NCBI GenBank assembly: GCA_037783545.1 | Contig: JBBELK010000060.1 | Span: forward strand, 3,224,001-3,288,000 | Direction: 5' to 3' | DNA: 64,000 nt | Source: Henricia sp. BOLD:AAB3569 | Taxonomy: Eukaryota; Echinodermata; Asteroidea; Spinulosida; Echinasteridae | In this document: positions 1 to 38,694 of the stretch, piece by piece | Layout: each line of letters opens with the position of its first letter | Numbering within the stretch: the first letter of the stretch is position 1 | The notes under the pieces: generated by a model | Told to the model about the DNA's origin: nothing | Database searches by the model: none | What the model saw: only the letters and a program-made list of their open reading frames with translations | Position numbers and translations under genes: made by a program

Positions 1-103
1 CTTGGCACACAAAGTGAAGTGGCGTCCAGTAGGTTCCTCTCCAGTCGTCCTAAATCGTCCAACTTCAAAAAGCATGCAAGCTAGTTTGCCGGAACCCGGG
101 ATT

Positions 104-153
<50 letters not shown>

Positions 154-222
154 TACGGCACATCTGTTTAACTTTCCAGAGTAAATCGCTGTCAAGAAAC
201 GGTAGAATGAAGACAAAATTGT

Positions 223-295
223 GGTCGGTTAGCTCAGTCGGTAGAGCGTCGTGCTGATAACGCGAAGGTCGTGGGTTCGAGCCCCATACTGACCA
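223..295 (+). tRNA. tRNA-Ile(GAT), reference copy for the array
   Basis: The acceptor stem pairs GGTCGGT with ACTGACC through six standard pairs and one G-U (5-68), with discriminator A73. The D stem is GCTC/GAGC, the anticodon stem TCGTG/CGCGA, the loop CTGATAA with anticodon GAT, and the T arm GTGGG-TTCGAGC-CCCAT. There is no intron and no encoded CCA. The body closely resembles animal tRNA-Ile, whose usual anticodon is AAT (read as IAU). Here position 34 is G in every copy. Internal A and B boxes are intact, so Pol III transcription is plausible. A T5 run lies 10 nt past the 3' end. Confidence 0.93.
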
Positions 296-304
296 GCTAC
301 CACC

Positions 305-309
305 TTTTT
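305..309 (+). terminator. T5 Pol III terminator after tRNA-Ile, reference copy
   Basis: A run of five T begins 10 nt after the Ile 3' end. Other units have four T (Ile 8380, 16112, 16804, 22330, 23022, 24406, 25098) or six T (2514, 3553, 14562), so termination strength may differ among copies. Confidence 0.75.
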
Positions 310-378
310 GGCCTTGGCACACAAAGTGAAGTGGCGTCCAGTAGGTTCCTCTCCAGTCGTCCTAAATCGTCTAACTTC

Positions 379-383
379 AAAAA
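379..383 (-). terminator. T5 Pol III terminator after tRNA-Phe, reference copy
   Basis: AAAAA on the + strand is T5 in the Phe transcript direction, 15 nt past the Phe 3' end. It lies between the two convergent genes, so each transcript should stop before reaching its neighbour. Confidence 0.7.
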
Positions 384-398
384 GCATGCAAGCTAGTT

Positions 399-415
399 TG
401 CCGGAACCCGGGATT

Positions 416-465
<50 letters not shown>

Positions 466-471
466 TACGGC
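399..471 (-). tRNA. tRNA-Phe(GAA), reference copy for the array
   Basis: Read on the - strand, the D stem is GCTC/GAGC, the anticodon stem TCAGA/TCTGA with loop CTGAAGA (anticodon GAA), and the T arm CCTGG-TTCAATC-CCGGG, ending in A73. This is nearly the standard eukaryotic tRNA-Phe. The exception is the acceptor stem GCCGTAA/TTCCGGC, which has an uncompensated U5-C68 mismatch. Eukaryotic tRNA-Phe normally has an A-U pair there. No intron is present. A T5 run (AAAAA on +) begins about 15 nt past the 3' end. Confidence 0.92.
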
Positions 472-568
472 ACATCTGTTTAACTTTCCAGAGTAAATCG
501 CACGGACTTATAAGGTCAGTTTTAGATGTACTCGCTGTCAAGAAACGGTAGAATGACGACAAAATTGT
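472..568. promoter_or_regulatory. Divergent spacer with TTATAA, reference copy
   Basis: This 97-bp spacer separates the 5' end of a Phe gene (471) from the 5' end of the next Ile gene (569). It contains the palindrome TTATAA at 508-513, about 37 nt upstream of Phe and 56 nt upstream of Ile. The spacing and the palindrome would suit a TATA element serving the Phe gene or both genes, as upstream TATA-like boxes help some Pol III genes. Function is inferred. The element is kept in almost every unit apart from two short ones. Confidence 0.5.
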
Positions 569-670
569 GGTCGGTTAGCTCAGTCGGTAGAGCGTCGTGC
601 TGATAACGCGAAGGTCGTGGGTTCGAGCCCCATACTGACCAGCTACCACCTTTTTGGTCTTGGCACACAA

Positions 671-686
671 ACTGAGCTATTACGGC
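671..686 (-). pseudogene. 16-nt tRNA-Phe remnant
   Basis: Only the first 16 nt of the Phe gene survive after a deletion that joins CACACAAA to CTGAGCTA. The same junction occurs at 5302-5317, 6537-6552 and 15999-16014, giving short units in which an Ile gene has no Phe partner. The CAA shared by both ends suggests a microhomology deletion that was later copied. Confidence 0.85.
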
Positions 687-976
687 ACATCTGTTTAACT
701 TTCCAGAGTAAATCGCACGGACTTATAAGGTCAGTTTTAGATGTACTCGCTGTCAAGAAACGGTAGAATGAAGACAAAATTGTGGTCGGTTAGCTCAGTC
801 GGTAGAGCGTCGTGCTGATAACGCGAAGGTCGTGGGTTCGAGCCCCATACTGACCAGCTACCACCTTTTTGGTCTTGGCACACAAAGTGAAGTGGCGTCC
901 AGTAGGTTCCTCTCCAGTCGTCCTAAATCCTCCAACTTCAAAAAGCATCCAAGCTAGTTTGCCGGAACCCGGGATT

Positions 977-1026
<50 letters not shown>

Positions 1027-1305
1027 TACGGCACATCTGTTTAACTTTCCAGAGTAAATCGCACGGACTTATAAGGTCAGTTTTAGATGTACTCGCTGTC
1101 AAGAAACGGTAGAATGAAGACAAAATTGTGGTCGGTTAGCTCAGTCGGTAGAGCGTCGTGCTGATAACGCGAAGGTCGTGGGTTCGAGCCCCATACTGAC
1201 CAGCTACCACCTTTTTGGTCTTGGCACACAAAGTGAAGTGGCGTCCAGTAGGTTCCTCTCCAGTCGTCCTAAATCCTCCAACTTCAAAAAGCATGCAAGC
1301 AAGTT

Positions 1306-1322
1306 TGCTGGAACCCGGGATT

Positions 1323-1372
<50 letters not shown>

Positions 1373-1378
1373 TACGGC
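1306..1378 (-). tRNA. tRNA-Phe variant with a second acceptor mismatch
   Basis: G70 is A, so C3-A70 adds to the U5-C68 mismatch. The same variant, linked to a T-to-A change in the 3' flank, is found at 5937, 7172, 7864, 17672 and 25966. Aminoacylation and 3' processing of these copies are doubtful. Confidence 0.85.
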
Positions 1379-1668
1379 ACATCTGTTTAACTTTCCAGAG
1401 TAAATCGCACGAACTTATAAGGTCAGTTTTAGATGTACTCGCTGTCAAGAAACGGTAGAATGAAGACAAAATTGTGGTCGGTTAGCTCAGTCGGTAGAGC
1501 GTCGTGCTGATAACGCGAAGGTCGTGGGTTCGAGCCCCATACTGACCAGCTACCACCTTTTTGGCCTTGGCACACAAAGTGAAGTGGCGTCCAGTAGGTT
1601 CCTCTCCAGTCGTCCTAAATCCTCCAACTTCAAAAAGCATCCAAGCTAGTTTGCCGGAACCCGGGATT

Positions 1669-1718
<50 letters not shown>

Positions 1719-2014
1719 TACGGCACATCTGTTTAACTTTCCAGAGTAAATCGCACGGACTTATAAGGTCAGTTTTAGATGTACTCGCTGTCAAGAAACG
1801 GTAGAATGAAGACAAAATTTTGGTCGGTTAGCTCAGTCGGTAGAGCGTCGTGCTGATAACGCGAAGGTCGTGGGTTCGAGCCCCATACTGACCAGCTACC
1901 ACCTTTTTGGTCTTGGCACACAAAGTGAAGTGGCGTCCAGTAGGTTCCTCTCCAGTCGTCCTAAATCGTCCAACTTCAAAAAGCATGCAAGCTAGTTTGC
2001 CGGAACCCGGGATT

Positions 2015-2064
<50 letters not shown>

Positions 2065-2360
2065 TACGGCACATCTGTTTAACTTTCCAGAGTAAATCGC
2101 ACGGACTTATAAGGTCAGTTTTAGATGTACTCGCTGTCAAGAAACGGTAGAATGAAGACAAAATTGTGGTCGGTTAGCTCAGTCGGTAGAGCGTCGTGCT
2201 GATAACGCGAAGGTCGTGGGTTCGAGCCCCATACTGACCAGCTACCACCTTTTTGGTCTTGGCACACAAAGTGAAGTGGCGTCCAGTAGGTTCCTCTCCA
2301 GTCGTCCTAAATCCTCCAACTTCAAAAAGCATGCAAGCTAGTTTGCCGGAACCCGGGATT

Positions 2361-2410
<50 letters not shown>

Positions 2411-2707
2411 TACGGCACATCTGTTTAACTTTCCAGAGTAAATCGCACGAACTTATAAGGTCAGTTTTAGATGTACTCGCTGTCAAGAAACGGTAGAATG
2501 AAGACAAAATTGTGGTCGGTTAGCTCAGTCGGTAGAGCGTCGTGCTGATAACGCGAAGGTCGTGGGTTCGAGCCCCATACTGACCAGCTACCACCTTTTT
2601 TGGTCTTGGCACACAAAGTGAAGTGGCGTCCAGTAGGTTCCTCTCCAGTCGTCCTAAATCGTCCAACTTCAAAAAGCATGCAAGCTAGTTTGCCGGAACC
2701 CGGGATT

Positions 2708-2757
<50 letters not shown>

Positions 2758-3053
2758 TACGGCACATCTGTTTAACTTTCCAGAGTAAATCGCACGAACT
2801 TATAAGGTCAGTTTTAGATGTACTCGCTGTCAAGAAACGGTAGAATGAAGACAAAATTGTGGTCGGTTAGCTCAGTCGGTAGAGCGTCGTGCTGATAACG
2901 CGAAGGTCGTGGGTTCGAGCCCCATACTGACCAGCTACCACCTTTTTGGCCTTGGCACACAAAGTGAAGTGGCGTCCAGTAGGTTCCTCTCCAGTCGTCC
3001 TAAATCGTCCAACTTCAAAAAGCATGCAAGCTAGTTTGCCGGAACCCGGGATT

Positions 3054-3103
<50 letters not shown>

Positions 3104-3399
3104 TACGGCACATCTGTTTAACTTTCCAGAGTAAATCGCACGGACTTATAAGGTCAGTTTTAGATGTACTCGCTGTCAAGAAACGGTAGAATGAAGACAA
3201 AATTGTGGTCGGTTAGCTCAGTCGGTAGAGCGTCGTGCTGATAACGCGAAGGTCGTGGGTTCGAGCCCCATACTGACCAGCTACCACCTTTTTGGTCTTG
3301 GCACACAAAGTGAAGTGGCGTCCAGTAGGTTCCTCTCCAGTCGTCCTAAATCCTCCAACTTCAAAAAGCATGCAAGCTAGTTTGCCGGAACCCGGGATT

Positions 3400-3449
<50 letters not shown>

Positions 3450-3746
3450 TACGGCACATCTGTTTAACTTTCCAGAGTAAATCGCACGAACTTATAAGGT
3501 CAGTTTTAGATGTACTCGCTGTCAAGAAACGGTAGAATGAAGACAAAATTGTGGTCGGTTAGCTCAGTCGGTAGAGCGTCGTGCTGATAACGCGAAGGTC
3601 GTGGGTTCGAGCCCCATACTGACCAGCTACCACCTTTTTTGGCCTTGGCACACAAAGTGAAGTGGCGTCCAGTAGGTTCCTCTCCAGTCTTCCTAAATCG
3701 TCCAACTTCAAAAAGCATGCAAGCTAGTTTGCCGGAACCCGGGATT

Positions 3747-3796
<50 letters not shown>

Positions 3797-4092
3797 TACG
3801 GCACATCTGTTTAACTTTCCAGAGTAAATCGCACGGACTTATAAGGTCAGTTTTAGATGTACTCGCTGTCAAGAAACGGTAGAATGAAGACAAAATTGTG
3901 GTCGGTTAGCTCAGTCGGTAGAGCGTCGTGCTGATAACGCGAAGGTCGTGGGTTCGAGCCCCATACTGACCAGCTACCACCTTTTTGGCCTTGGCACACA
4001 AAGTGAAGTGGCGTCCAGTAGGTTCCTCTCCAGTCGTCCTAAATCCTCCAACTTCAAAAAGCATGCAAGCTAGTTTGCCGGAACCCGGGATT

Positions 4093-4142
<50 letters not shown>

Positions 4143-4438
4143 TACGGCACATCTGTTTAACTTTCCAGAGTAAATCGCACGAACTTATAAGGTCAGTTTT
4201 AGATGTACTCGCTGTCAAGAAACGGTAGAATGAAGACAAAATTGTGGTCGGTTAGCTCAGTCGGTAGAGCGTCGTGCTGATAACGCGAAGGTCGTGGGTT
4301 CGAGCCCCATACTGACCAGCTACCACCTTTTTGGCCTTGGCACACAAAGTGAAGTGGCGTCCAGTAGGTTCCTCTCCAGTCGTCCTAAATCGTCCAACTT
4401 CAAAAAGCATGCAAGCTAGTTTGCCGGAACCCGGGATT

Positions 4439-4488
<50 letters not shown>

Positions 4489-4750
4489 TACGGCACATCT
4501 GTTTAACTTTCCAGAGTAAATCGCTGTCAAGAAACGGTAGAATGAAGACAAAATTGTGGTCGGTTAGCTCAGTCGGTAGAGCGTCGTGCTGATAACGCGA
4601 AGGTCGTGGGTTCGAGCCCCATACTGACCAGCTACCACCTTTTTGGCCTTGGCACACAAAGTGAAGTGGCGTCCAGTAGGTTCCTCTCCAGTCGTCCTAA
4701 ATCGTCTAACTTCAAAAAGCATGCAAGCTAGTTTGCCGGAACCCGGGATT

Positions 4751-4800
<50 letters not shown>

Positions 4801-5096
4801 TACGGCACATCTGTTTAACTTTCCAGAGTAAATCGCACGGACTTATAAGGTCAGTTTTAGATGTACTCGCTGTCAAGAAACGGTAGAATGACGACAAAAT
4901 TGTGGTCGGTTAGCTCAGTCGGTAGAGCGTCGTGCTGATAACGCGAAGGTCGTGGGTTCGAGCCCCATACTGACCAGCTACCACCTTTTTGGCCTTGGCA
5001 CACAAAGTGAAGTGGCGTCCAGTAGGTTCCTCTCCAGTCGTCCTAAATCGTCCAACTTCAAAAAGCATGCAAGCTAGTTTGCCGGAACCCGGGATT

Positions 5097-5146
<50 letters not shown>

Positions 5147-5607
5147 TACGGCACATCTGTTTAACTTTCCAGAGTAAATCGCACGGACTTATAAATTGTG
5201 GTCGGTTAGCTCAGTCGGTAGAGCGTCGTGCTGATAACGCGAAGGTCGTGGGTTCGAGCCCCATACTGACCAGCTACCACCTTTTTGGTCTTGGCACACA
5301 AACTGAGCTATTACGGCACATCTGTTTAACTTTCCAGAGTAAATCGCACGGACTTATAAGGTCAGTTTTAGATGTACTCGCTGTCAAGAAACGGTAGAAT
5401 GAAGACAAAATTGTGGTCGGTTAGCTCAGTCGGTAGAGCGTCGTGCTGATAACGCGAAGGTCGTGGGTTCGAGCCCCATACTGACCAGCTACCACCTTTT
5501 TGGTCTTGGCACACAAAGTGAAGTGGCGTCCAGTAGGTTCCTCTCCAGTCGTCCTAAATCCTCCAACTTCAAAAAGCATCCAAGCTAGTTTGCCGGAACC
5601 CGGGATT

Positions 5608-5657
<50 letters not shown>

Positions 5658-5953
5658 TACGGCACATCTGTTTAACTTTCCAGAGTAAATCGCACGGACT
5701 TATAAGGTCAGTTTTAGATGTACTCGCTGTCAAGAAACGGTAGAATGAAGACAAAATTGTGGTCGGTTAGCTCAGTCGGTAGAGCGTCGTGCTGATAACG
5801 CGAAGGTCGTGGGTTCGAGCCCCATACTGACCAGCTACCACCTTTTTGGTCTTGGCACACAAAGTGAAGTGGCGTCCAGTAGGTTCCTCTCCAGTCGTCC
5901 TAAATCCTCCAACTTCAAAAAGCATGCAAGCAAGTTTGCTGGAACCCGGGATT

Positions 5954-6003
<50 letters not shown>

Positions 6004-6299
6004 TACGGCACATCTGTTTAACTTTCCAGAGTAAATCGCACGAACTTATAAGGTCAGTTTTAGATGTACTCGCTGTCAAGAAACGGTAGAATGAAGACAA
6101 AATTGTGGTCGGTTAGCTCAGTCGGTAGAGCGTCGTGCTGATAACGCGAAGGTCGTGGGTTCGAGCCCCATACTGACCAGCTACCACCTTTTTGGTCTTG
6201 GCACACAAAGTGAAGTGGCGTCCAGTAGGTTCCTCTCCAGTCGTCCTAAATCCTCCAACTTCAAAAAGCATCCAAGCTAGTTTGCCGGAACCCGGGATT

Positions 6300-6349
<50 letters not shown>

Positions 6350-6452
6350 TACGGCACATCTGTTTAACTTTCCAGAGTAAATCGCACGGACTTATAAGGT
6401 CAGTTTTAGATGTACTCGCTGTCAAGAAACGGTAGAATGAAGACAAAATTGT

Positions 6453-6517
6453 GGTCGGTTAGCTCAGTCGGTAGAGCGTCGTGCTGATAACGCGAAGGTC
6501 GTGGGTTCGAGCCCCAT
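6453..6517 (+). pseudogene. tRNA-Ile truncated at the 3' end
   Basis: The copy is intact through the T stem. It then breaks off into GGGGGTTC, which replaces the 3' acceptor strand, the terminator and most of the gap. The following Phe gene is reduced to 16 nt. This is the only broken Ile gene in the array. Confidence 0.88.
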
Positions 6518-6842
6518 GGGGGTTCTTGGCACACAAACTGAGCTATTACGGCACATCTGTTTAACTTTCCAGAGTAAATCGCACGGACTTATAAGGTCAG
6601 TTTTAGATGTACTCGCTGTCAAGAAACGGTAGAATGAAGACAAAATTGTGGTCGGTTAGCTCAGTCGGTAGAGCGTCGTGCTGATAACGCGAAGGTCGTG
6701 GGTTCGAGCCCCATACTGACCAGCTACCACCTTTTTGGTCTTGGCACACAAAGTGAAGTGGCGTCCAGTAGGTTCCTCTCCAGTCGTCCTAAATCCTCCA
6801 ACTTCAAAAAGCATCCAAGCTAGTTTGCCGGAACCCGGGATT

Positions 6843-6892
<50 letters not shown>

Positions 6893-7188
6893 TACGGCAC
6901 ATCTGTTTAACTTTCCAGAGTAAATCGCACGGACTTATAAGGTCAGTTTTAGATGTACTCGCTGTCAAGAAACGGTAGAATGAAGACAAAATTGTGGTCG
7001 GTTAGCTCAGTCGGTAGAGCGTCGTGCTGATAACGCGAAGGTCGTGGGTTCGAGCCCCATACTGACCAGCTACCACCTTTTTGGTCTTGGCACACAAAGT
7101 GAAGTGGCGTCCAGTAGGTTCCTCTCCAGTCGTCCTAAATCCTCCAACTTCAAAAAGCATGCAAGCAAGTTTGCTGGAACCCGGGATT

Positions 7189-7238
<50 letters not shown>

Positions 7239-7534
7239 TACGGCACATCTGTTTAACTTTCCAGAGTAAATCGCACGAACTTATAAGGTCAGTTTTAGAT
7301 GTACTCGCTGTCAAGAAACGGTAGAATGAAGACAAAATTGTGGTCGGTTAGCTCAGTCGGTAGAGCGTCGTGCTGATAACGCGAAGGTCGTGGGTTCGAG
7401 CCCCATACTGACCAGCTACCACCTTTTTGGTCTTGGCACACAAAGTGAAGTGGCGTCCAGTAGGTTCCTCTCCAGTCGTCCTAAATCCTCCAACTTCAAA
7501 AAGCATCCAAGCTAGTTTGCCGGAACCCGGGATT

Positions 7535-7584
<50 letters not shown>

Positions 7585-7880
7585 TACGGCACATCTGTTT
7601 AACTTTCCAGAGTAAATCGCACGGACTTATAAGGTCAGTTTTAGATGTACTCGCTGTCAAGAAACGGTAGAATGAAGACAAAATTGTGGTCGGTTAGCTC
7701 AGTCGGTAGAGCGTCGTGCTGATAACGCGAAGGTCGTGGGTTCGAGCCCCATACTGACCAGCTACCACCTTTTTGGTCTTGGCACACAAAGTGAAGTGGC
7801 GTCCAGTAGGTTCCTCTCCAGTCGTCCTAAATCCTCCAACTTCAAAAAGCATGCAAGCAAGTTTGCTGGAACCCGGGATT

Positions 7881-7930
<50 letters not shown>

Positions 7931-8033
7931 TACGGCACATCTGTTTAACTTTCCAGAGTAAATCGCACGAACTTATAAGGTCAGTTTTAGATGTACTCGC
8001 TGTCAAGAAACGGTAGAATGAAGACAAAATTGT

Positions 8034-8106
8034 GGTCGGTTAGCTCAGTCGGTAGAGCGTCGTGCTGATAACGCGAATGTCGTGGGTTCGAGCCCCATAC
8101 TGACCA
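8034..8106 (+). tRNA. tRNA-Ile variant, G45 to T in the variable loop
   Basis: A single change in the variable loop leaves all stems paired. It is unique to this unit, whose Phe partner (8210) is also altered. Confidence 0.85.
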
Positions 8107-8209
8107 GCTACCACCTTTTTGGCCTTGGCACACAAAGTGAAGTGGCGTCCAGTAGGTTCCTCTCCAGTCGTCCTAAATCGTCCAACTTCAAAAAGCATGC
8201 AAGCTAGTT

Positions 8210-8226
8210 TGCCGGAACCCGGGATT

Positions 8227-8270
<44 letters not shown>

Positions 8271-8282
8271 CGCTATTACGGC
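8210..8282 (-). tRNA. tRNA-Phe variant with a D-stem mismatch
   Basis: T12 is G, giving a G12-A23 clash in the D stem and altering the A box. The change is private to this copy. Confidence 0.8.
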
Positions 8283-8572
8283 ACATCTGTTTAACTTTCC
8301 AGAGTAAATCGCACGGACTTATAAGGTCAGTTTTAGATGTACTCGCTGTCAAGAAACGGTAGAATGAAGACAAAATTGTGGTCGGTTAGCTCAGTCGGTA
8401 GAGCGTCGTGCTGATAACGCGAAGGTCGTGGGTTCGAGCCCCATACTGACCAGCTACCACCTTTTAGGCCTTGGCACACAAAGTGAAGTGGCGTCCAGTA
8501 GGTTCCTCTCCAGTCGTCCTAAATCCTCCAACTTCAAAAAGCATGCAAGCTAGTTTGCCGGAACCCGGGATT

Positions 8573-8622
<50 letters not shown>

Positions 8623-8725
8623 TACGGCACATCTGTTTAACTTTCCAGAGTAAATCGCACGGACTTATAAGGTCAGTTTTAGATGTACTCGCTGTCAAGA
8701 AACGGTAGAATGAAGACAAAATTGT

Positions 8726-8798
8726 GGTCGGTTAGCTCAGTCGGTAGAGCGTCGTGCTGATAACGCGAAGGTCGTGGGTTCGAGCACCATACTGACCA
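8726..8798 (+). tRNA. tRNA-Ile variant with a T-stem mismatch
   Basis: C61 is A, which breaks the G53-C61 pair that closes the T loop. This pair is nearly universal, so the product is probably defective. Confidence 0.8.
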
Positions 8799-8918
8799 GC
8801 TACCACCTTTTTGGTCTTGGCACACAAAGTGAAGTGGCGTCCAGTAGGTTCCTCTCCAGTCGTCCTAAATCCTCCAACTTCAAAAAGCATGCAAGCTAGT
8901 TTGCCGGAACCCGGGATT

Positions 8919-8968
<50 letters not shown>

Positions 8969-9264
8969 TACGGCACATCTGTTTAACTTTCCAGAGTAAA
9001 TCGCACGAACTTATAAGGTCAGTTTTAGATGTACTCGCTGTCAAGAAACGGTAGAATGAAGACAAAATTGTGGTCGGTTAGCTCAGTCGGTAGAGCGTCG
9101 TGCTGATAACGCGAAGGTCGTGGGTTCGAGCCCCATACTGACCAGCTACCACCTTTTTGGCCTTGGCACACAAAGTGAAGTGGCGTCCAGTAGGTTCCTC
9201 TCCAGTCGTCCTAAATCGTCCAACTTCAAAAAGCATGCAAGCTAGTTTGCCGGAACCCGGGATT

Positions 9265-9314
<50 letters not shown>

Positions 9315-9610
9315 TACGGCACATCTGTTTAACTTTCCAGAGTAAATCGCACGGACTTATAAGGTCAGTTTTAGATGTACTCGCTGTCAAGAAACGGTAG
9401 AATGAAGACAAAATTGTGGTCGGTTAGCTCAGTCGGTAGAGCGTCGTGCTGATAACGCGAAGGTCGTGGGTTCGAGCCCCATACTGACCAGCTACCACCT
9501 TTTTGGTCTTGGCACACAAAGTGAAGTGGCGTCCAGTAGGTTCCTCTCCAGTCGTCCTAAATCGTCCAACTTCAAAAAGCATGCAAGCTAGTTTGCCGGA
9601 ACCCGGGATT

Positions 9611-9660
<50 letters not shown>

Positions 9661-9956
9661 TACGGCACATCTGTTTAACTTTCCAGAGTAAATCGCACGG
9701 ACTTATAAGGTCAGTTTTAGATGTACTCGCTGTCAAGAAACGGTAGAATGAAGACAAAATTGTGGTCGGTTAGCTCAGTCGGTAGAGCGTCGTGCTGATA
9801 ACGCGAAGGTCGTGGGTTCGAGCCCCATACTGACCAGCTACCACCTTTTTGGTCTTGGCACACAAAGTGAAGTAGCGTCCAGTAGGTTCCTCTCCAGTCG
9901 TCCTAAATCGTCCAACTTCAAAAAGCATGCAAGCTAGTTTGCCGGAACCCGGGATT

Positions 9957-10006
<50 letters not shown>

Positions 10007-10302
10007 TACGGCACATCTGTTTAACTTTCCAGAGTAAATCGCACGAACTTATAAGGTCAGTTTTAGATGTACTCGCTGTCAAGAAACGGTAGAATGAAGA
10101 CAGAATTGTGGTCGGTTAGCTCAGTCGGTAGAGCGTCGTGCTGATAACGCGAAGGTCGTGGGTTCGAGCCCCATACTGACCAGCTACCACCTTTTTGGCC
10201 TTGGCACACAAAGTGAAGTGGCGTCCAGTAGGTTCCTCTCCAGTCGTCCTAAATCGTCCAACTTCAAAAAGCATGCAAGCTAGTTTGCCGGAACCCGGGA
10301 TT

Positions 10303-10352
<50 letters not shown>

Positions 10353-10648: not shown

Positions 10649-10698
<50 letters not shown>

Positions 10699-10994: not shown

Positions 10995-11044
<50 letters not shown>

Positions 11045-11323: not shown

Positions 11324-11340
11324 TGCCGGAACCCGGGATT

Positions 11341-27366: not shown

Positions 27367-27416
<50 letters not shown>

Positions 27417-27712: not shown

Positions 27713-27757
<45 letters not shown>

Positions 27758-28058: not shown

Positions 28059-28108
<50 letters not shown>

Positions 28109-28387: not shown

Positions 28388-28404
28388 TGCCGGAACCCGG
28401 GATT

Positions 28405-28435
<31 letters not shown>

Positions 28436-28449
28436 TGAGCTATTACGGC
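28388..28449 (-). pseudogene. tRNA-Phe with an 11-bp deletion (second copy)
   Basis: Same CTGA-flanked deletion as at 20094, carried by block duplication. Confidence 0.88.
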
Positions 28450-28739
28450 ACATCTGTTTAACTTTCCAGAGTAAATCGCACGGACTTATAAGGTCAGTTT
28501 TAGATGTACTCGCTGTCAAGAAACGGTAGAATGAAGACAAAATTGTGGTCGGTTAGCTCAGTCGGTAGAGCGTCGTGCTGATAACGCGAAGGTCGTGGGT
28601 TCCAGCCCCATACTGACCAGCTACCACCTTTTTGGTCTTGGCACACAAAGTGAAGTGGCGTCCAGTAGGTTCCTCTCCAGTCGTCCTAAATCCTCCAACT
28701 TCAAAAAGCATGCAAGCTAGTTTGCCGGAACCCGGGATT

Positions 28740-28789
<50 letters not shown>

Positions 28790-29085
28790 TACGGCACATC
28801 TGTTTAACTTTCCAGAGTAAATCGCACGAACTTATAAGGTCAGTTTTAGATGTACTCGCTGTCAAGAAACGGTAGAATGAAGACAAAATTGTGGTCGGTT
28901 AGCTCAGTCGGTAGAGCGTCGTGCTGATAACGCGAAGGTCGTGGGTTCGAGCCCCATACTGACCAGCTACCACCTTTTTGGCCTTGGCACACAAAGTGAA
29001 GTGGCGTCCAGTAGGTTCCTCTCCAGTCGTCCTAAATCGTCCAACTTCAAAAAGCATGCAAGCTAGTTTGCCGGAACCCGGGATT

Positions 29086-29135
<50 letters not shown>

Positions 29136-29431
29136 TACGGCACATCTGTTTAACTTTCCAGAGTAAATCGCACGGACTTATAAGGTTAGTTTTAGATGTA
29201 CTCGCTGTCAAGAAACGGTAGAATGAAGACAAAATTGTGGTCGGTTAGCTCAGTCGGTAGAGCGTCGTGCTGATAACGCGAAGGTCGTGGGTTCGAGCCC
29301 CATACTGACCAGCTACCACCTTTTTGGTCTTGGCACACAAAGTGAAGTGGCGTCCAGTAGGTTCCTCTCCAGTCGTCCTAAATCGTCCAACTTCAAAAAG
29401 CATGCAAGCTAGTTTGCCGGAACCCGGGATT

Positions 29432-29481
<50 letters not shown>

Positions 29482-29777
29482 TACGGCACATCTGTTTAAC
29501 TTTCCAGAGTAAATCGCACGAACTTATAAGGTCAGTTTTAGATGTACTCGCTGTCAAGAAACGGTAGAATGAAGACAAAATTGTGGTCGGTTAGCTCAGT
29601 CGGTAGAGCGTCGTGCTGATAACGCGAAGGTCGTGGGTTCGAGCCCCATACTGACCAGCTACCACCTTTTTGGCCTTGGCACACAAAGTGAAGTGGCGTC
29701 CAGTAGGTTCCTCTCCAGTCGTCCTAAATCGTCCAACTTCAAAAAGCATGCAAGCTAGTTTGCCGGAACCCGGGATT

Positions 29778-29827
<50 letters not shown>

Positions 29828-30470
29828 TACGGCACATCTGTTTAACTTTCCAGAGTAAATCGCACGGACTTATAAGGTCAGTTTTAGATGTACTCGCTGT
29901 CAAGAAACGGTAGAATGAAGACAAAATTGTGGTCGGTTAGCTCAGTCGGTAGAGCGTCGTGCTGATAACGCGAAGGTCGTGGGTTCGAGCCCCATACTGA
30001 CCAGCTACCACCTTTTTGGCCTTGGCACACAAAGTGAAGTGGCGTCCAGTAGGTTCCTCTCCAGTCGTCCTAAATCGTCCAACTTCAAAAAGCATGCAAG
30101 CTAGTTTGCCGGAACCCGGGATTGAACCAGGGACCTTCAGATCTTCAGTCAGACGCTCTCCCAACTGAGCTATTACGGCACATCTGTTTAACTTTCCAGA
30201 GTAAATCGCACGGACTTATAAGGTCAGTTTTAGATGTACTCGCTGTCAAGAAACGGTAGAATGAAGACAAAATTGTGGTCGGTTAGCTCAGTCGGTAGAG
30301 CGTCGTGCTGATAACGCGAAGGTCGTGGGTTCGAGCCCCATACTGACCAGCTACCACCTTTTTGGTCTTGGCACACAAAGTGAAGTGGCGTCCAGTAGGT
30401 TCCCTCTCCAGTCGTCCTAAATCGTCCAACTTCAAAAAGCATGCAAGCTAGTTTGCCGGAACCCGGGATT

Positions 30471-30520
<50 letters not shown>

Positions 30521-30816
30521 TACGGCACATCTGTTTAACTTTCCAGAGTAAATCGCACGAACTTATAAGGTCAGTTTTAGATGTACTCGCTGTCAAGAAA
30601 CGGTAGAATGAAGACAAAATTGTGGTCGGTTAGCTCAGTCGGTAGAGCGTCGTGCTGATAACGCGAAGGTCGTGGGTTCGAGCCCCATACTGACCAGCTA
30701 CCACCTTTTTGGCCTTGGCACACAAAGTGAAGTGGCGTCCAGTAGGTTCCTCTCCAGTCGTCCTAAATCGTCCAACTTCAAAAAGCATGCAAGCTAGTTT
30801 GCCGGAACCCGGGATT

Positions 30817-30866
<50 letters not shown>

Positions 30867-31162
30867 TACGGCACATCTGTTTAACTTTCCAGAGTAAATC
30901 GCACGAACTTATAAGGTCAGTTTTAGATGTACTCGCTGTCAAGAATCGGTAGAATGAAGACAAAATTGTGGTCGGTTAGCTCAGTCGGTAGAGCGTCGTG
31001 CTGATAACGCGAAGGTCGTGGGTTCGAGCCCCATACTGACCAGCTACCACCTTTTTGGTCTTGGCACACAAAGTGAAGTGGCGTCCAGTAGGTTCCTCTC
31101 CAGTCGTCCTAAATCGTCCAACTTCAAAAAGCATGCAAGCTAGTTTGCCGGAACCCGGGATT

Positions 31163-31212
<50 letters not shown>

Positions 31213-31315
31213 TACGGCACATCTGTTTAACTTTCCAGACTAAATCGCACGAACTTATAAGGTCAGTTTTAGATGTACTCGCTGTCAAGAAACGGTAGAA
31301 TGAAGACGAAATTGT

Positions 31316-31388
31316 GGTCGGTTAGCTCAGTCGGTAGAGCGTCGTGCTGATAACGGGAAGGTCGTGGGTTCGAGCCCCATACTGACCA
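31316..31388 (+). tRNA. tRNA-Ile variant, C41 to G
   Basis: The anticodon stem 3' strand is CGGGA, so G29 faces G41. The change is private to this copy. Confidence 0.8.
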
Positions 31389-31496
31389 GCTACCACCTTT
31401 TTGGCCTTGGCATTTGCACACAAAGTGAAGTGGTGTCCAGTAGATTCTCTCCAGTCCTCCTAAATCGTCCAACTTCAAAAAGCATGCAAGCTAGTT

Positions 31497-31518
31497 TGCC
31501 GGAACCCGGGATTGAACA

Positions 31519-31563
<45 letters not shown>

Positions 31564-31569
31564 TACGGC
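31497..31569 (-). tRNA. tRNA-Phe variant with a T-stem mismatch
   Basis: The T stem CCTGG reads CCTTG, leaving T52-C62. Shared with 33925, 35306 and 37038, all in the right-hand part of the array. Confidence 0.83.
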
Positions 31570-31859
31570 ACATCTGTTTAACTTTCCAGAGTAAATCGCA
31601 CGAACTTATAAGGTCAGTTTTAGATGTACTCGCTGTCAAGAAACGGTAGAATGAAGACGAAATTGTGGTCGGTTAGCTCAGTCGGTAGAGCGTCGTGCTG
31701 ATAACGCGAAGGTCGTGGGTTCGAGCCCCATACTGACCAGCTACCACCTTTTTGGCCTTGGCATTTGCACACAAAGTGGTGTCCAGTAGATTCTCTCCAG
31801 TCCTCCTAAATCGTCCAACTTCAAAAAGCATGCAAGCTGGTTTGCCGGAACCCGGGATT

Positions 31860-31909
<50 letters not shown>

Positions 31910-32205
31910 TACGGCACATCTGTTTAACTTTCCAGAGTAAATCGCACGAACTTATAAGGTCAGTTTTAGATGTACTCGCTGTCAAGAAACGGTAGAATGA
32001 AGACAAAATTGTGGTCGGTTAGCTCAGTCGGTAGAGCGTCGTGCTGATAACGCGAAGGTCGTGGGTTCGAGCCCCATACTGACCAGCTACCACCTTTTTG
32101 GCCTTGGCACACAAAGTGAAGTGGCGTCCAGTAGGTTCCTCTCCAGTCGTCCTAAATCGTCCAACTTCAAAAAGCATGCAAGCTAGTTTGCCGGAACCCG
32201 GGATT

Positions 32206-32255
<50 letters not shown>

Positions 32256-32898
32256 TACGGCACATCTGTTTAACTTTCCAGAGTAAATCGCACGGACTTA
32301 TAAGGTCAGTTTTAGATGTACTCGCTGTCAAGAAACGGTAGAATGAAGACAAAATTGTGGTCGGTTAGCTCAGTCGGTAGAGCGTCGTGCTGATAACGCG
32401 AAGGTCGTGGGTTCGAGCCCCATACTGACCAGCTACCACCTTTTTGGCCTTGGCACACAAAGTGAAGTGGCGTCCAGTAGGTTCCTCTCCAGTCGTCCTA
32501 AATCGTCCAACTTCAAAAAGCATGCAAGCTAGTTTGCCGGAACCCGGGATTGAACCAGGGACCTTCAGATCTTCAGTCAGACGCTCTCCCAACTGAGCTA
32601 TTACGGCACATCTGTTTAACTTTCCAGAGTAAATCGCACGGACTTATAAGGTCAGTTTTAGATGTACTCGCTGTCAAGAAACGGTAGAATGAAGACAAAA
32701 TTGTGGTCGGTTAGCTCAGTCGGTAGAGCGTCGTGCTGATAACGCGAAGGTCGTGGGTTCGAGCCCCATACTGACCAGCTACCACCTTTTTGGTCTTGGC
32801 ACACAAAGTGAAGTGGCGTCCAGTAGGTTCCCTCTCCAGTCGTCCTAAATCGTCCAACTTCAAAAAGCATGCAAGCTAGTTTGCCGGAACCCGGGATT

Positions 32899-32948
<50 letters not shown>

Positions 32949-33244
32949 TACGGCACATCTGTTTAACTTTCCAGAGTAAATCGCACGAACTTATAAGGTC
33001 AGTTTTAGATGTACTCGCTGTCAAGAAACGGTAGAATGAAGACAAAATTGTGGTCGGTTAGCTCAGTCGGTAGAGCGTCGTGCTGATAACGCGAAGGTCG
33101 TGGGTTCGAGCCCCATACTGACCAGCTACCACCTTTTTGGCCTTGGCACACAAAGTGAAGTGGCGTCCAGTAGGTTCCTCTCCAGTCGTCCTAAATCGTC
33201 CAACTTCAAAAAGCATGCAAGCTAGTTTGCCGGAACCCGGGATT

Positions 33245-33294
<50 letters not shown>

Positions 33295-33590
33295 TACGGC
33301 ACATCTGTTTAACTTTCCAGAGTAAATCGCACGAACTTATAAGGTCAGTTTTAGATGTACTCGCTGTCAAGAAACGGTAGAATGAAGACAAAATTGTGGT
33401 CGGTTAGCTCAGTCGGTAGAGCGTCGTGCTGATAACGCGAAGGTCGTGGGTTCGAGCCCCATACTGACCAGCTACCACCTTTTTGGTCTTGGCACACAAA
33501 GTGAAGTGGCGTCCAGTAGGTTCCTCTCCAGTCGTCCTAAATCGTCCAACTTCAAAAAGCATGCAAGCTAGTTTGCCGGAACCCGGGATT

Positions 33591-33640
<50 letters not shown>

Positions 33641-33946
33641 TACGGCACATCTGTTTAACTTTCCAGACTAAATCGCACGAACTTATAAGGTCAGTTTTAG
33701 ATGTACTCGCTGTCAAGAAACGGTAGAATGAAGACGAAATTGTGGTCGGTTAGCTCAGTCGGTAGAGCGTCGTGCTGATAACGCGAAGGTCGTGGGTTCG
33801 AGCCCCATACTGACCAGCTACCACCTTTTTGGCCTTGGCATTTGCACACAAAGTGAAGTGGTGTCCAGTAGATTCTCTCCAGTCCTCCTAAATCGTCCAA
33901 CTTCAAAAAGCATGCAAGCTAGTTTGCCGGAACCCGGGATTGAACA

Positions 33947-33991
<45 letters not shown>

Positions 33992-34270
33992 TACGGCACA
34001 TCTGTTTAACTTTCCAGAGTAAATCGCACGAACTTATAAGGTCAGTTTTAGATGTACTCGCTGTCAAGAAACGGTAGAATGAAGACGAAATTGTGGTCGG
34101 TTAGCTCAGTCGGTAGAGCGTCGTGCTGATAACGCGAAGGTCGTGGGTTCGAGCCCCATACTGACCAGCTACCACCTTTTTGGCCTTGGCATTTGCACAC
34201 AAAGTGGTGTCCAGTAGATTCTCTCCAGTCCTCCTAAATCGTCCAACTTCAAAAAGCATGCAAGCTGGTT

Positions 34271-34298
34271 TGCCGGAACCCGGGATTGAACCAGGGAC

Positions 34299-34329
<31 letters not shown>

Positions 34330-34335
34330 TACGGC
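34271..34335 (-). pseudogene. tRNA-Phe lacking 8 nt of the anticodon arm
   Basis: One of two CTTCAG direct repeats on the + strand is lost, together with the 3' strand of the anticodon stem. Identical broken copies are at 35652-35716 and 37384-37448, spread by the 1,381- and 1,732-bp block duplications. Confidence 0.88.
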
Positions 34336-34625
34336 ACATCTGTTTAACTTTCCAGAGTAAATCGCACGAACTTATAAGGTCAGTTTTAGATGTACTCGCT
34401 GTCAAGAAACGGTAGAATGAAGACGAAATTGTGGTCGGTTAGCTCAGTCGGTAGAGCGTCGTGCTGATAACGCGAAGGTCGTGGGTTCGAGCCCCATACT
34501 GACCAGCTACCACCTTTTTGGCCTTGGCACACAAAGTGAAGTGGCGTCCAGTAGGTTCCTCTCCAGTCGTCCTAAATCGTCCAACTTCAAAAAGCATGCA
34601 AGCTAGTTTGCCGGAACCCGGGATT

Positions 34626-34675
<50 letters not shown>

Positions 34676-34971
34676 TACGGCACATCTGTTTAACTTTCCA
34701 GAGTAAATCGCACGAACTTATAAGGTCAGTTTTAGATGTACTCGCTGTCAAGAAACGGTAGAATGAAGACAAAATTGTGGTCGGTTAGCTCAGTCGGTAG
34801 AGCGTCGTGCTGATAACGCGAAGGTCGTGGGTTCGAGCCCCATACTGACCAGCTACCACCTTTTTGGTCTTGGCACACAAAGTGAAGTGGCGTCCAGTAG
34901 GTTCCTCTCCAGTCGTCCTAAATCGTCCAACTTCAAAAAGCATGCAAGCTAGTTTGCCGGAACCCGGGATT

Positions 34972-35021
<50 letters not shown>

Positions 35022-35327
35022 TACGGCACATCTGTTTAACTTTCCAGACTAAATCGCACGAACTTATAAGGTCAGTTTTAGATGTACTCGCTGTCAAGAA
35101 ACGGTAGAATGAAGACGAAATTGTGGTCGGTTAGCTCAGTCGGTAGAGCGTCGTGCTGATAACGCGAAGGTCGTGGGTTCGAGCCCCATACTGACCAGCT
35201 ACCACCTTTTTGGCCTTGGCATTTGCACACAAAGTGAAGTGGTGTCCAGTAGATTCTCTCCAGTCCTCCTAAATCGTCCAACTTCAAAAAGCATGCAAGC
35301 TAGTTTGCCGGAACCCGGGATTGAACA

Positions 35328-35372
<45 letters not shown>

Positions 35373-35651
35373 TACGGCACATCTGTTTAACTTTCCAGAG
35401 TAAATCGCACGAACTTATAAGGTCAGTTTTAGATGTACTCGCTGTCAAGAAACGGTAGAATGAAGACGAAATTGTGGTCGGTTAGCTCAGTCGGTAGAGC
35501 GTCGTGCTGATAACGCGAAGGTCGTGGGTTCGAGCCCCATACTGACCAGCTACCACCTTTTTGGCCTTGGCATTTGCACACAAAGTGGTGTCCAGTAGAT
35601 TCTCTCCAGTCCTCCTAAATCGTCCAACTTCAAAAAGCATGCAAGCTGGTT

Positions 35652-35679
35652 TGCCGGAACCCGGGATTGAACCAGGGAC

Positions 35680-35710
<31 letters not shown>

Positions 35711-35716
35711 TACGGC
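35652..35716 (-). pseudogene. tRNA-Phe lacking 8 nt of the anticodon arm (second copy)
   Basis: Same CTTCAG-mediated deletion as at 34271. Confidence 0.87.
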
Positions 35717-36006
35717 ACATCTGTTTAACTTTCCAGAGTAAATCGCACGAACTTATAAGGTCAGTTTTAGATGTACTCGCTGTCAAGAAACGGTAGAATG
35801 AAGACGAAATTGTGGTCGGTTAGCTCAGTCGGTAGAGCGTCGTGCTGATAACGCGAAGGTCGTGGGTTCGAGCCCCATACTGACCAGCTACCACCTTTTT
35901 GGCCTTGGCACACAAAGTGAAGTGGCGTCCAGTAGGTTCCTCTCCAGTCGTCCTAAATCGTCCAACTTCAAAAAGCATGCAAGCTGGTTTGCCGGAACCC
36001 GGGATT

Positions 36007-36056
<50 letters not shown>

Positions 36057-36357
36057 TACGGCACATCTGTTTAACTTTCCAGAGTAAATCGCACGAACTT
36101 ATAAGGTCAGTTTTAGATGTACTCGCTGTCAAGAAACGGTAGAATGAAGTCGAAATTGTGGTCGGTTAGCTCAGTCGGTAGAGCGTCGTGCTGATAACGC
36201 GAAGGTCGTGGGTTCGAGCCCCATACTGACCAGCTACCACCTTTTTGGCCTTGGCATTTGCACACAAAGTGAAGTGGTGTCCAGTAGATTCTCTCCAGTC
36301 CTCCTAAATCGTCCAACTTCAAAAAGCATGCAAGCTGGTTTGCCGGAACCCGGGATT

Positions 36358-36407
<50 letters not shown>

Positions 36408-36703
36408 TACGGCACATCTGTTTAACTTTCCAGAGTAAATCGCACGAACTTATAAGGTCAGTTTTAGATGTACTCGCTGTCAAGAAACGGTAGAATGAAG
36501 ACAAAATTGTGGTCGGTTAGCTCAGTCGGTAGAGCGTCGTGCTGATAACGCGAAGGTCGTGGGTTCGAGCCCCATACTGACCAGCTACCACCTTTTTGGT
36601 CTTGGCACACAAAGTGAAGTGGCGTCCAGTAGGTTCCTCTCCAGTCGTCCTAAATCGTCCAACTTCAAAAAGCATGCAAGCTAGTTTGCCGGAACCCGGG
36701 ATT

Positions 36704-36753
<50 letters not shown>

Positions 36754-37059
36754 TACGGCACATCTGTTTAACTTTCCAGACTAAATCGCACGAACTTATA
36801 AGGTCAGTTTTAGATGTACTCGCTGTCAAGAAACGGTAGAATGAAGACGAAATTGTGGTCGGTTAGCTCAGTCGGTAGAGCGTCGTGCTGATAACGCGAA
36901 GGTCGTGGGTTCGAGCCCCATACTGACCAGCTACCACCTTTTTGGCCTTGGCATTTGCACACAAAGTGAAGTGGTGTCCAGTAGATTCTCTCCAGTCCTC
37001 CTAAATCGTCCAACTTCAAAAAGCATGCAAGCTAGTTTGCCGGAACCCGGGATTGAACA

Positions 37060-37104
<45 letters not shown>

Positions 37105-37383
37105 TACGGCACATCTGTTTAACTTTCCAGAGTAAATCGCACGAACTTATAAGGTCAGTTTTAGATGTACTCGCTGTCAAGAAACGGTAGAATGAAGACG
37201 AAATTGTGGTCGGTTAGCTCAGTCGGTAGAGCGTCGTGCTGATAACGCGAAGGTCGTGGGTTCGAGCCCCATACTGACCAGCTACCACCTTTTTGGCCTT
37301 GGCATTTGCACACAAAGTGGTGTCCAGTAGATTCTCTCCAGTCCTCCTAAATCGTCCAACTTCAAAAAGCATGCAAGCTGGTT

Positions 37384-37411
37384 TGCCGGAACCCGGGATT
37401 GAACCAGGGAC

Positions 37412-37442
<31 letters not shown>

Positions 37443-37448
37443 TACGGC
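37384..37448 (-). pseudogene. tRNA-Phe lacking 8 nt of the anticodon arm (third copy)
   Basis: Same CTTCAG-mediated deletion as at 34271. Confidence 0.87.
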
Positions 37449-37738
37449 ACATCTGTTTAACTTTCCAGAGTAAATCGCACGAACTTATAAGGTCAGTTTT
37501 AGATGTACTCGCTGTCAAGAAACGGTAGAATGAAGACGAAATTGTGGTCGGTTAGCTCAGTCGGTAGAGCGTCGTGCTGATAACGCGAAGGTCGTGGGTT
37601 CGAGCCCCATACTGACCAGCTACCACCTTTTTGGCCTTGGCACACAAAGTGAAGTGGCGTCCAGTAGGTTCCTCTCCAGTCGTCCTAAATCGTCCAACTT
37701 CAAAAAGCATGCAAGCTGGTTTGCCGGAACCCGGGATT

Positions 37739-37788
<50 letters not shown>

Positions 37789-38089
37789 TACGGCACATCT
37801 GTTTAACTTTCCAGAGTAAATCGCACGAACTTATAAGGTCAGTTTTAGATGTACTCGCTGTCAAGAAACGGTAGAATGAAGTCGAAATTGTGGTCGGTTA
37901 GCTCAGTCGGTAGAGCGTCGTGCTGATAACGCGAAGGTCGTGGGTTCGAGCCCCATACTGACCAGCTACCACCTTTTTGGCCTTGGCATTTGCACACAAA
38001 GTGAAGTGGTGTCCAGTAGATTCTCTCCAGTCCTCCTAAATCGTCCAACTTCAAAAAGCATGCAAGCTGGTTTGCCGGAACCCGGGATT

Positions 38090-38139
<50 letters not shown>

Positions 38140-38242
38140 TACGGCACATCTGTTTAACTTTCCAGAGTAAATCGCACGAACTTATAAGGTCAGTTTTAGA
38201 TGTACTCGCTGTCAAGAAACGGTAGAATGAAGACGAAATTGT

Positions 38243-38315
38243 GGTCGGTTAGCTCAGTCGGTAGAGCGTCGTGCTGATAACGCGAAGGTCGTGGGTTCGA
38301 ACCCCATACTGACCA
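38243..38315 (+). tRNA. tRNA-Ile variant, T loop TTCGAAC
   Basis: G59 is A. This is the second-last Ile gene, in a unit with several private spacer changes. Confidence 0.82.
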
Positions 38316-38435
38316 GCTACCACCTTTTTGGCCTTGTCACACAAAGTGAAGTGGCGTCCAGTAGGTTCCTCTCCAGTCGTCGTAAATCGTCCAACTTCAA
38401 AAAGAATGCAAGCTAGTTTGCCGGAACCCGGGATT

Positions 38436-38485
<50 letters not shown>

Positions 38486-38588
38486 TACGGCACATCTGTT
38501 TAACTTTCCAGAGTAAATCGCACGAACTTATAAGGTCAGTTTTAGATGTACTCGCTGTCAAGAAACGGTAGAATGAAGACGAAATTGT

Positions 38589-38661
38589 GGTCGGTTAGCT
38601 CAGTCGGTAGAGCGTCGTGCTGATAACCCGAAGGTCGTGGGTTCGAGCCCCATACTGACCA
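38589..38661 (+). tRNA. Last tRNA-Ile of the array, G40 to C
   Basis: The anticodon stem 3' strand is CCCGA, giving T30-C40 where the consensus has T-G. No Phe gene follows. The unit ends in the gap near 38,694 where unrelated sequence begins. The terminator is reduced to CCGTTTT. Confidence 0.82.
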
Positions 38662-38694
38662 GCTATCACCGTTTTGGCCTTGGCATTTGCACAC

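Follow-up and report, generated by a model that had tools for sequence, protein, structure and literature searches.

The window analysed here is a 64,000-bp stretch of a starfish (Henricia sp.) genome assembly of 740.7 Mb, corresponding to C60:3224001-3288000, and it begins inside a tandem array of paired tRNA-Ile and tRNA-Phe genes. The mitochondrial genetic code and mitochondrial gene order of the assembly also indicate a starfish. The features of the array in the window, with one unit taken as an example, are as follows (window positions):

1..38694, no strand assigned: tandem Ile/Phe tRNA array, right-hand portion (ARAGORN, Tandem Repeats Finder)
940..944, minus strand: T5, Pol III terminator-like, of the example tRNA-Phe; 15 nt past the mature Phe end
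959..1033, minus strand: tRNA-Phe (GAA), example gene of one unit, with a U5/C68 acceptor mismatch (ARAGORN)
1034..1128, no strand assigned: example spacer separating the 5' ends of the divergent Phe and Ile genes; consensus length 96 bp, counted from mature end to mature end
1129..1204, plus strand: tRNA-Ile (GAU), example gene of one unit (bounds from ARAGORN)
1212..1216, plus strand: T5, Pol III terminator-like, of the example tRNA-Ile; 9 nt past the mature Ile end
1217..1285, no strand assigned: 3'-to-3' spacer between both terminators, example; 69 bp, varying more than any other part of the unit
28546..38694, no strand assigned: more divergent right edge, i.e., the last bin of 26 units, with a mean of 5.5 differences from the consensus

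ARAGORN called 217 tRNA genes in the window, all within positions 86-38,663, namely 113 Ile-GAT on the plus strand and 102 Phe-GAA as well as 2 Phe-AAA on the minus strand, and Tandem Repeats Finder returned a period of 346 across most of 1-38,694. Strands, period, and the number of Ile genes bear out the original prediction of about 114 mostly 346-bp units with two opposed tRNA genes each, and the right edge at about 38,694 proved correct. The array was also said to pass the left edge of the window, and it continues to C60:3,098,856, about four times the reported stretch, so that the whole array (C60:3098856-3262694) measures 163,839 bp (163.8 kb) and holds 888 ARAGORN tRNA calls. Units (346 bp, 49% GC, 42% mature tRNA) are arranged head-to-tail with intact tRNA genes inside, and the Ile-to-Ile spacing is 344-352 bp in 416 of 448 intervals of the whole array, with a single 8.3-kb spacing caused by one Ty3/gypsy-like insertion in the interior. 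At the right edge, some units are 351 bp long, and one Phe copy (37384-37448) is shortened. Eleven array tRNAs of this edge were scored with Rfam, ten of them full-length (54-70 bits) and one the shortened Phe (46.5 bits); chance matches are excluded because these scores far exceed the cut-off of 29 bits. To the right of the array, two of three open frames had no Pfam match.

Across the whole array, 401 of 452 Ile copies and 364 of 447 Phe copies matched the consensus exactly, and A box, B box, and a T-run of at least 4 were all kept in 435/452 Ile and 435/447 Phe copies, counts that take in partial copies. The distance from mature end to T-run was likewise nearly constant (among end-to-end copies, 9 nt for 440 of 447 Ile and 15 nt for 427 of 434 Phe), and the U5/C68 acceptor mismatch was present in all 423 gap-free full-length Phe copies. 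As Phe and Ile point away from each other over the 96-bp spacer and towards each other where their terminators lie back to back, no readthrough into the partner gene is expected. Among the 449 ARAGORN Ile calls of the array, 447 carried GAU and 2 UAU, and every call in the window was GAU, an anticodon unusual for eukaryotic nuclear tRNA-Ile. The arrayed gene is hence distinct from the eukaryotic A34 (inosine) tRNA-Ile with anticodon AAU, which was the type of the dispersed tRNA-Ile genes found in few copies on two other contigs (C308 and C482). With its many G34 tRNA-Ile genes, this animal offers a natural case that bears on the eukaryotic use of inosine.

Exact-pattern searches of the genome gave 474 matches for Phe (411 in the fetched stretch, 63 elsewhere) and 510 for Ile-GAU (443 in the fetched stretch, 67 elsewhere); by exact pattern, the array thus holds most genome copies of both genes. 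On the opposite strand, 63 Phe and 65 Ile-GAU matches were counted, as expected for a second block of the Ile/Phe unit. The Phe and Ile pattern matches listed were filled by C60 copies, and a pattern designed to exclude the flanks of the known array matched 3 array copies only. A differing form of tRNA-Phe was found nowhere in the genome by exact-pattern searches, two of which were run without a positive control; such patterns can miss genes, as one Ile-AAT called by ARAGORN on C308 was unmatched. The unit is probably the main, perhaps the sole, nuclear source of tRNA-Phe, and probably also the main source of G34 tRNA-Ile, as judged from these gene counts.

The 448 units comprised 154 distinct sequences, the commonest occurring in 66 copies, and the mean number of differences to the consensus per bin of units ranged from 1.1 to 5.5. 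Together with the divergent right edge, this fits unequal exchange. Unit variants were interspersed along the array; local clustering of variants, which would have pointed to short-range duplication, was considered and rejected, as neighbouring units differed at 3.49 positions versus 3.64 in shuffled order, which is only slightly closer (2,000 shuffles, lowest 3.42). Diversity (pi) was 0.0038 in tRNA genes versus 0.0136 in spacers, and minor variants above 1% were seen at 7/146 gene sites versus 24/200 spacer sites (p = 0.02). The contrast is nevertheless weak, as rotating the gene mask matched it in 32 of 345 cases and it was lost when variable sites of any frequency (36 gene versus 65 spacer, p = 0.12), above 0.25% (27 versus 41, p = 0.68), or above 0.5% (18 versus 31, p = 0.44) were counted over the same 146 and 200 sites.

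A second pair type, Lys-UUU/Tyr-GUA, was found in arrays on two further contigs (C109 and C837), and the two pair types represent a case of opposed tRNA pairs amplified independently. A common origin of the Ile/Phe and Lys/Tyr arrays was rejected, as their units align in the tRNA bodies only, besides matches of 9-10 bases. Between the consensus units of the two Lys/Tyr arrays, 1 of 157 tRNA-gene positions differed, located in the Tyr intron, versus 30 of 436 spacer positions (p = 0.001); if the commonest Tyr by place was used instead, 3 of 157 tRNA-gene positions differed (p = 0.02). Individual copies varied in mature tRNA, with the consensus form at 10/15 Lys and 14/14 Tyr places read on C109 and at 7/16 Lys and 4/12 Tyr places read on C837. 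The idea that mature tRNAs are identical between both Lys/Tyr arrays was therefore discarded, since it holds for the consensus of distinct units only and the by-place check gave variants.

Taken together, the Ile/Phe array is likely a functional tRNA supply array comparable to rDNA or 5S clusters and kept uniform by unequal exchange. In each unit, RNA polymerase III would transcribe both genes from their internal A and B boxes, and each transcript would end at the T-run of its gene. One pair would have been multiplied into hundreds of copies by unequal crossing-over and gene conversion, which would also keep the copies alike, and selection would purge damaged tRNA genes. The high copy number may most plausibly provide bulk tRNA for growing oocytes and early embryos, a role also suggested for other clusters of Pol III genes; this is the weakest step of the proposed mechanism.

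Rather unlikely, though the strongest competitor, is a selfish satellite in which a captured tRNA pair was amplified into mostly silent, heterochromatic copies, with a few active ones being sufficient and the copy number having no function. Interspersed variants and homogenised units would suit such a satellite, as would the weakly visible selection within the Ile/Phe array and the varying mature tRNA of single Lys/Tyr copies. In zebrafish, one largely heterochromatic chromosome carries 60% of the predicted tRNA genes, most of them seemingly inaccessible, and the Arabidopsis Ser-Tyr-Tyr (SYY) cluster is silent in most tissues (PMC12308677). However, ordinary satellite DNA consists of repeats without conserved genes, and most units here hold intact tRNA genes with boxes and terminators kept; moreover, exact patterns recovered no other tRNA-Phe form, and between the Lys/Tyr arrays the tRNA genes diverge less than the spacers.

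It is very improbable that the array is a boundary or structural element, in which dense TFIIIC sites would insulate or organise the chromosome as a block and tRNA would be made only incidentally. A B box is present in 886 tRNA copies across 164 kb, and the human 1q23.3 tRNA repeat has been proposed to serve as a boundary (PMC4041453), but intact mature tRNA bodies and terminators would then be unnecessary, and the CTCF motif per unit that marks a repeat of the human type was absent from the starfish unit within 1 mismatch of the single core motif used (one match per strand at 2 mismatches). The unit also lacked a telomere repeat within 2 mismatches. Inflation or misjoining of a short array during assembly is equally far-fetched, for although one contig (C955) is odd in carrying cox1 three times at mitochondrial-genome spacing, the array is embedded in a 4.4-Mb contig with both flanks unlike the unit, contains its many distinct unit sequences, and is accompanied by further tRNA arrays on other contigs.

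Among the roles originally offered, tRNA supply is hence best supported, by intact promoters and terminators and the lack of another Phe form in the searches; no positive evidence emerged for a boundary, and satellite behaviour is real in the way the array evolves, but its copies are mostly intact genes. Extending the supply reading, we tentatively suggest that starfish may maintain entire anticodon families in rDNA-like arrays of opposed pairs (Ile/Phe, Lys/Tyr), with arrays as the sole source of tRNA-Phe and G34 tRNA-Ile returned as the major Ile tRNA alongside the inosine type, perhaps for decoding in oocytes or embryos.

Tandem tRNA arrays are already known, and the Ile/Phe unit is a different form. 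The tandem tDNA of Xenopus laevis, linked to oocyte and embryo supply, has a unit of about 3.2 kb with eight tRNA genes in about a hundred or more copies, compared with two genes in 346 bp in the starfish. That an array of the Ile/Phe pair is not known from elsewhere, as originally stated, agrees with the literature, in which no echinoderm was described with a nuclear tandem tRNA array among the matches listed. On zebrafish chromosome 4, most tRNA genes are likewise gathered in one region, for which a maternal role was hypothesised, but this region is heterochromatic and contains many gene types, with no pure two-gene unit in the parts of the sources considered (PMC11574265, PMC11075544). The human 1q23.3 tRNA VNTR also consists of tandem tRNA units using both strands; its GC-rich unit is 7.3 kb long with five tRNA genes, CTCF binding, and 9-43 copies (PMC4041453), in contrast to the short, 49% GC starfish unit, which has hundreds of copies and no such CTCF-like core. 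Arabidopsis SYY resembles the starfish array in its tandem units with two tRNA species; it grew by tandem duplication, and cell-specific supply was proposed, but it is described among redundant tRNA genes of a plant and is silent in most tissues (PMC12308677), whereas no second tRNA-Phe form was found in the starfish. Entamoeba is similar in that homogeneous tandem arrays, whose units contain up to 5 tRNA genes, account for almost all its tRNA genes, yet it is a protist with 25 unit types and the starfish an animal with two pair types found, and in the tabulated part the Entamoeba Ile genes are AAT or TAT and no Ile/Phe pair is listed (PMC2652664). The function of the Entamoeba arrays was termed obscure by the authors of that study (PMC2652664). 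Tandem tRNA arrays have had no settled function, and the starfish seems to rely on them for essential tRNAs; tests of array deletion, expression, and copy number in this system would therefore bear directly on function.

tRNA genes were called with ARAGORN, which placed all 217 calls of the window within positions 86-38,663, with 113 tRNA-Ile genes (anticodon GAT) on the forward strand and 104 tRNA-Phe genes (102 GAA and 2 AAA) on the reverse strand, and Tandem Repeats Finder reported a period of 346 across most of the array stretch in the window. The window corresponds to C60:3,224,001-3,288,000 in a genome of 2,104 contigs (740.7 Mb), and the 200 kb to its left were added to the analysis. 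The whole Ile/Phe array extends over 163,839 bp (C60:3,098,856-3,262,694) inside one contig of 4.43 Mb and holds 888 tRNA calls, i.e., 447 Ile-GAT and 2 Ile-TAT, and on the Phe strand 428 Phe-GAA, 7 Phe-AAA, and 4 unresolved calls. The Ile-to-Ile spacing was 344-352 bp in 416 of 448 distances, and a single distance of 8,304 bp corresponds to an insertion left of the window (C60:3111067-3119371), whose two 615-bp ends are 100% identical and whose frames suggest a Ty3/gypsy-like element. It lies a few bases past the mature 3' end of one tRNA-Phe copy, which is thereby separated from its own terminator.

In the 346-bp consensus unit, Ile is encoded on the forward and Phe on the reverse strand, mature tRNA makes up 42% of the unit, and the 5' ends of the two genes are separated by a 96-bp spacer. 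On the 3'-to-3' side, a 69-bp spacer lies between T5 (Ile) and A5 (Phe), the latter being T5 on the strand of Phe. The first T-run of at least four starts 9 nt past the mature end in 440/447 end-to-end Ile copies and 15 nt past it in 427/434 end-to-end Phe copies, and one Phe copy has no such run inside 40 nt. With partial copies counted, A box, B box, and T-run were found together in 435/452 Ile and 435/447 Phe copies, and 401/452 and 364/447 copies, respectively, were identical to the consensus.

Diversity was determined on an alignment of 416 units, excluding 32 units of other length, and averaged 0.0038 in the tRNA genes versus 0.0136 in the spacers. Sites with minor variants above 2% numbered 2/146 in the genes versus 13/200 in the spacers (p = 0.03), those above 1% 7/146 versus 24/200 (p = 0.02), those above 0.5% 18/146 versus 31/200 (p = 0.44), those above 0.25% 27/146 versus 41/200 (p = 0.68), and variable sites of any frequency 36/146 versus 65/200 (p = 0.12). 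When the gene mask was rotated along the unit, the observed contrast was reached in 32/345 rotations. As the contrast appeared at some cut-offs only and was reached by these rotations, constraint on the tRNA genes of this array is suggested, not strongly. The 448 array units comprise 154 distinct sequences, the commonest occurring 66 times. Units of the right-edge bin (the last 26) differ from the consensus at a mean of 5.5 positions and those of the other bins at 1.1-2.9, as would be expected where unequal exchange seldom reaches; the left-edge bin (1.1 differences) lacks the divergence expected at an edge.

Genome-wide, the exact Ile-GAU pattern gave 510 matches (445 forward, 65 reverse), of which 443 forward matches fall in the fetched stretch (the window plus 200 kb to its left) and two other forward ones elsewhere. 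The Phe pattern gave 474 matches (63 forward, 411 reverse), with exactly 411 reverse and no forward matches in the fetched stretch. The 63 forward Phe and 65 reverse Ile matches are as expected of a second Ile/Phe block in opposite orientation, in which they would be paired. No tRNA-Phe with a different base at position 5 or at position 28 was found genome-wide by exact patterns run without a positive control. The array sequence is thus the sole tRNA-Phe form detected, within the sensitivity of incomplete exact patterns. All 423 gap-free full-length Phe copies of the array carry an acceptor-stem mismatch (U5/C68); were the array the sole source of tRNA-Phe, this mismatch would have to be tolerated. 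Arrayed Ile differs from dispersed Ile-AAU at 5/73 positions, A34 to G34 among them. With AAU in place of GAU, the exact Ile pattern matched five places (four on contig C308, one on C482), and ARAGORN called five AAU genes in the five fetched loci. One matched place is a truncated copy without a call and one called gene on C308 has no match; the latter shows that the exact patterns are incomplete.

A tRNA family search, in which none of the best 63 places scored lay on C60, led to arrays of a second pair on C109 and C837. Their units measure about 593 and 584 bp and combine Lys-TTT with a Tyr-GTA gene that runs on the other strand and contains a 10-nt intron. At the C837 loci, ARAGORN called Lys only, and Tyr was read from sequence and pattern. 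The Tyr pattern gave 395 matches; those listed lie on C109 (127,628-198,465, with inverted stretches at 151.7-152.3 kb and 196.3-198.5 kb where Tyr is on the other strand), on C837 from 141,775 on, and once on C2. The 900 bases read around the C2 copy contain no further tRNA, and its intron differs from that of the arrayed Tyr. Consensus units built from nine small loci (13 distinct units versus 7, identical units counted once) differ between C109 and C837 in 31/593 columns, 30/436 in spacers versus 1/157 in tRNA genes (p = 0.001), the latter in the Tyr intron. Single copies nevertheless vary when each place is counted: the consensus Lys was present at 10/15 places on C109 and 7/16 on C837, and the C109 Tyr form at 14/14 and 4/12. 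Using the commonest C837 Tyr (6/12 places), which has two changes, the contrast was 3/157 in tRNA genes versus 30/436 in spacers (p = 0.02). At 3/15 Lys places read on C109, the gene has a 75-nt form in which 2 nt are inserted and the acceptor is altered. The spacers of the Ile/Phe and Lys/Tyr units share no similarity longer than 10 bases, which implies two or more separate amplifications of an opposed pair.

Further features of the window lie to the right of the array:
39191-39292 and 40088-40150, two C-rich tracts directly right of the array
43067-43128, a lone, incomplete tRNA-like match scoring 33.7 bits, possibly a tRNA-derived SINE
61659-63701, a LINE-like open frame in which Pfam detected a reverse transcriptase domain (RVT_1)

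Elsewhere in the assembly, contig C955 (48,576 bp) carries cox1 three times at a spacing of 16,221 bp, which is also the length of contig C2104; C955 resembles three mitochondrial genomes joined in tandem and is probably an assembly product. The cox1 stretch is stop-free under translation tables 5, 9, 13, and 14, and under table 9 (echinoderm) or 14, Asn and Ile fall at what we take to be conserved Asn and Ile positions. A gene read as nad1 and nine opposite-strand tRNAs adjoin cox1, followed by Arg, nad4L, cox2, and Lys, which agrees with the starfish order. One mitochondrial gene order is common to starfish according to published papers. The sequence thus probably comes from a starfish.

The Ile/Phe array consists of mostly intact genes in opposed layout, with terminators, in homogenised units. 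Judged from these sequences, the arrayed genes would be transcribed by Pol III, unequal crossing-over may homogenise the units, and the animal may depend on the array. Supply of tRNA to the oocyte or embryo would be the weakest step: a maternal role hypothesised for tRNA genes of a zebrafish chromosome 4 region, per the accessible text (PMC11075544), speaks for it, whereas the poor accessibility and the lack of correlation between gene copy number and tRNA level in zebrafish, as given in the accessible text of PMC11574265, speak against it.

Two annotations of the starfish Asterias amurensis list 14,926 and 6,779 tRNAs, and arrays are not mentioned in the portions of these papers covered here (PMC10625585, PMC11090083). 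Among the literature matches listed, mostly without subscription papers, none described tandemly arrayed nuclear tRNA genes for any echinoderm. The closest described systems in the literature covered, as far as its accessible text goes, are those of Entamoeba, Arabidopsis (SYY), and human 1q23.3. Xenopus provides a further related system.
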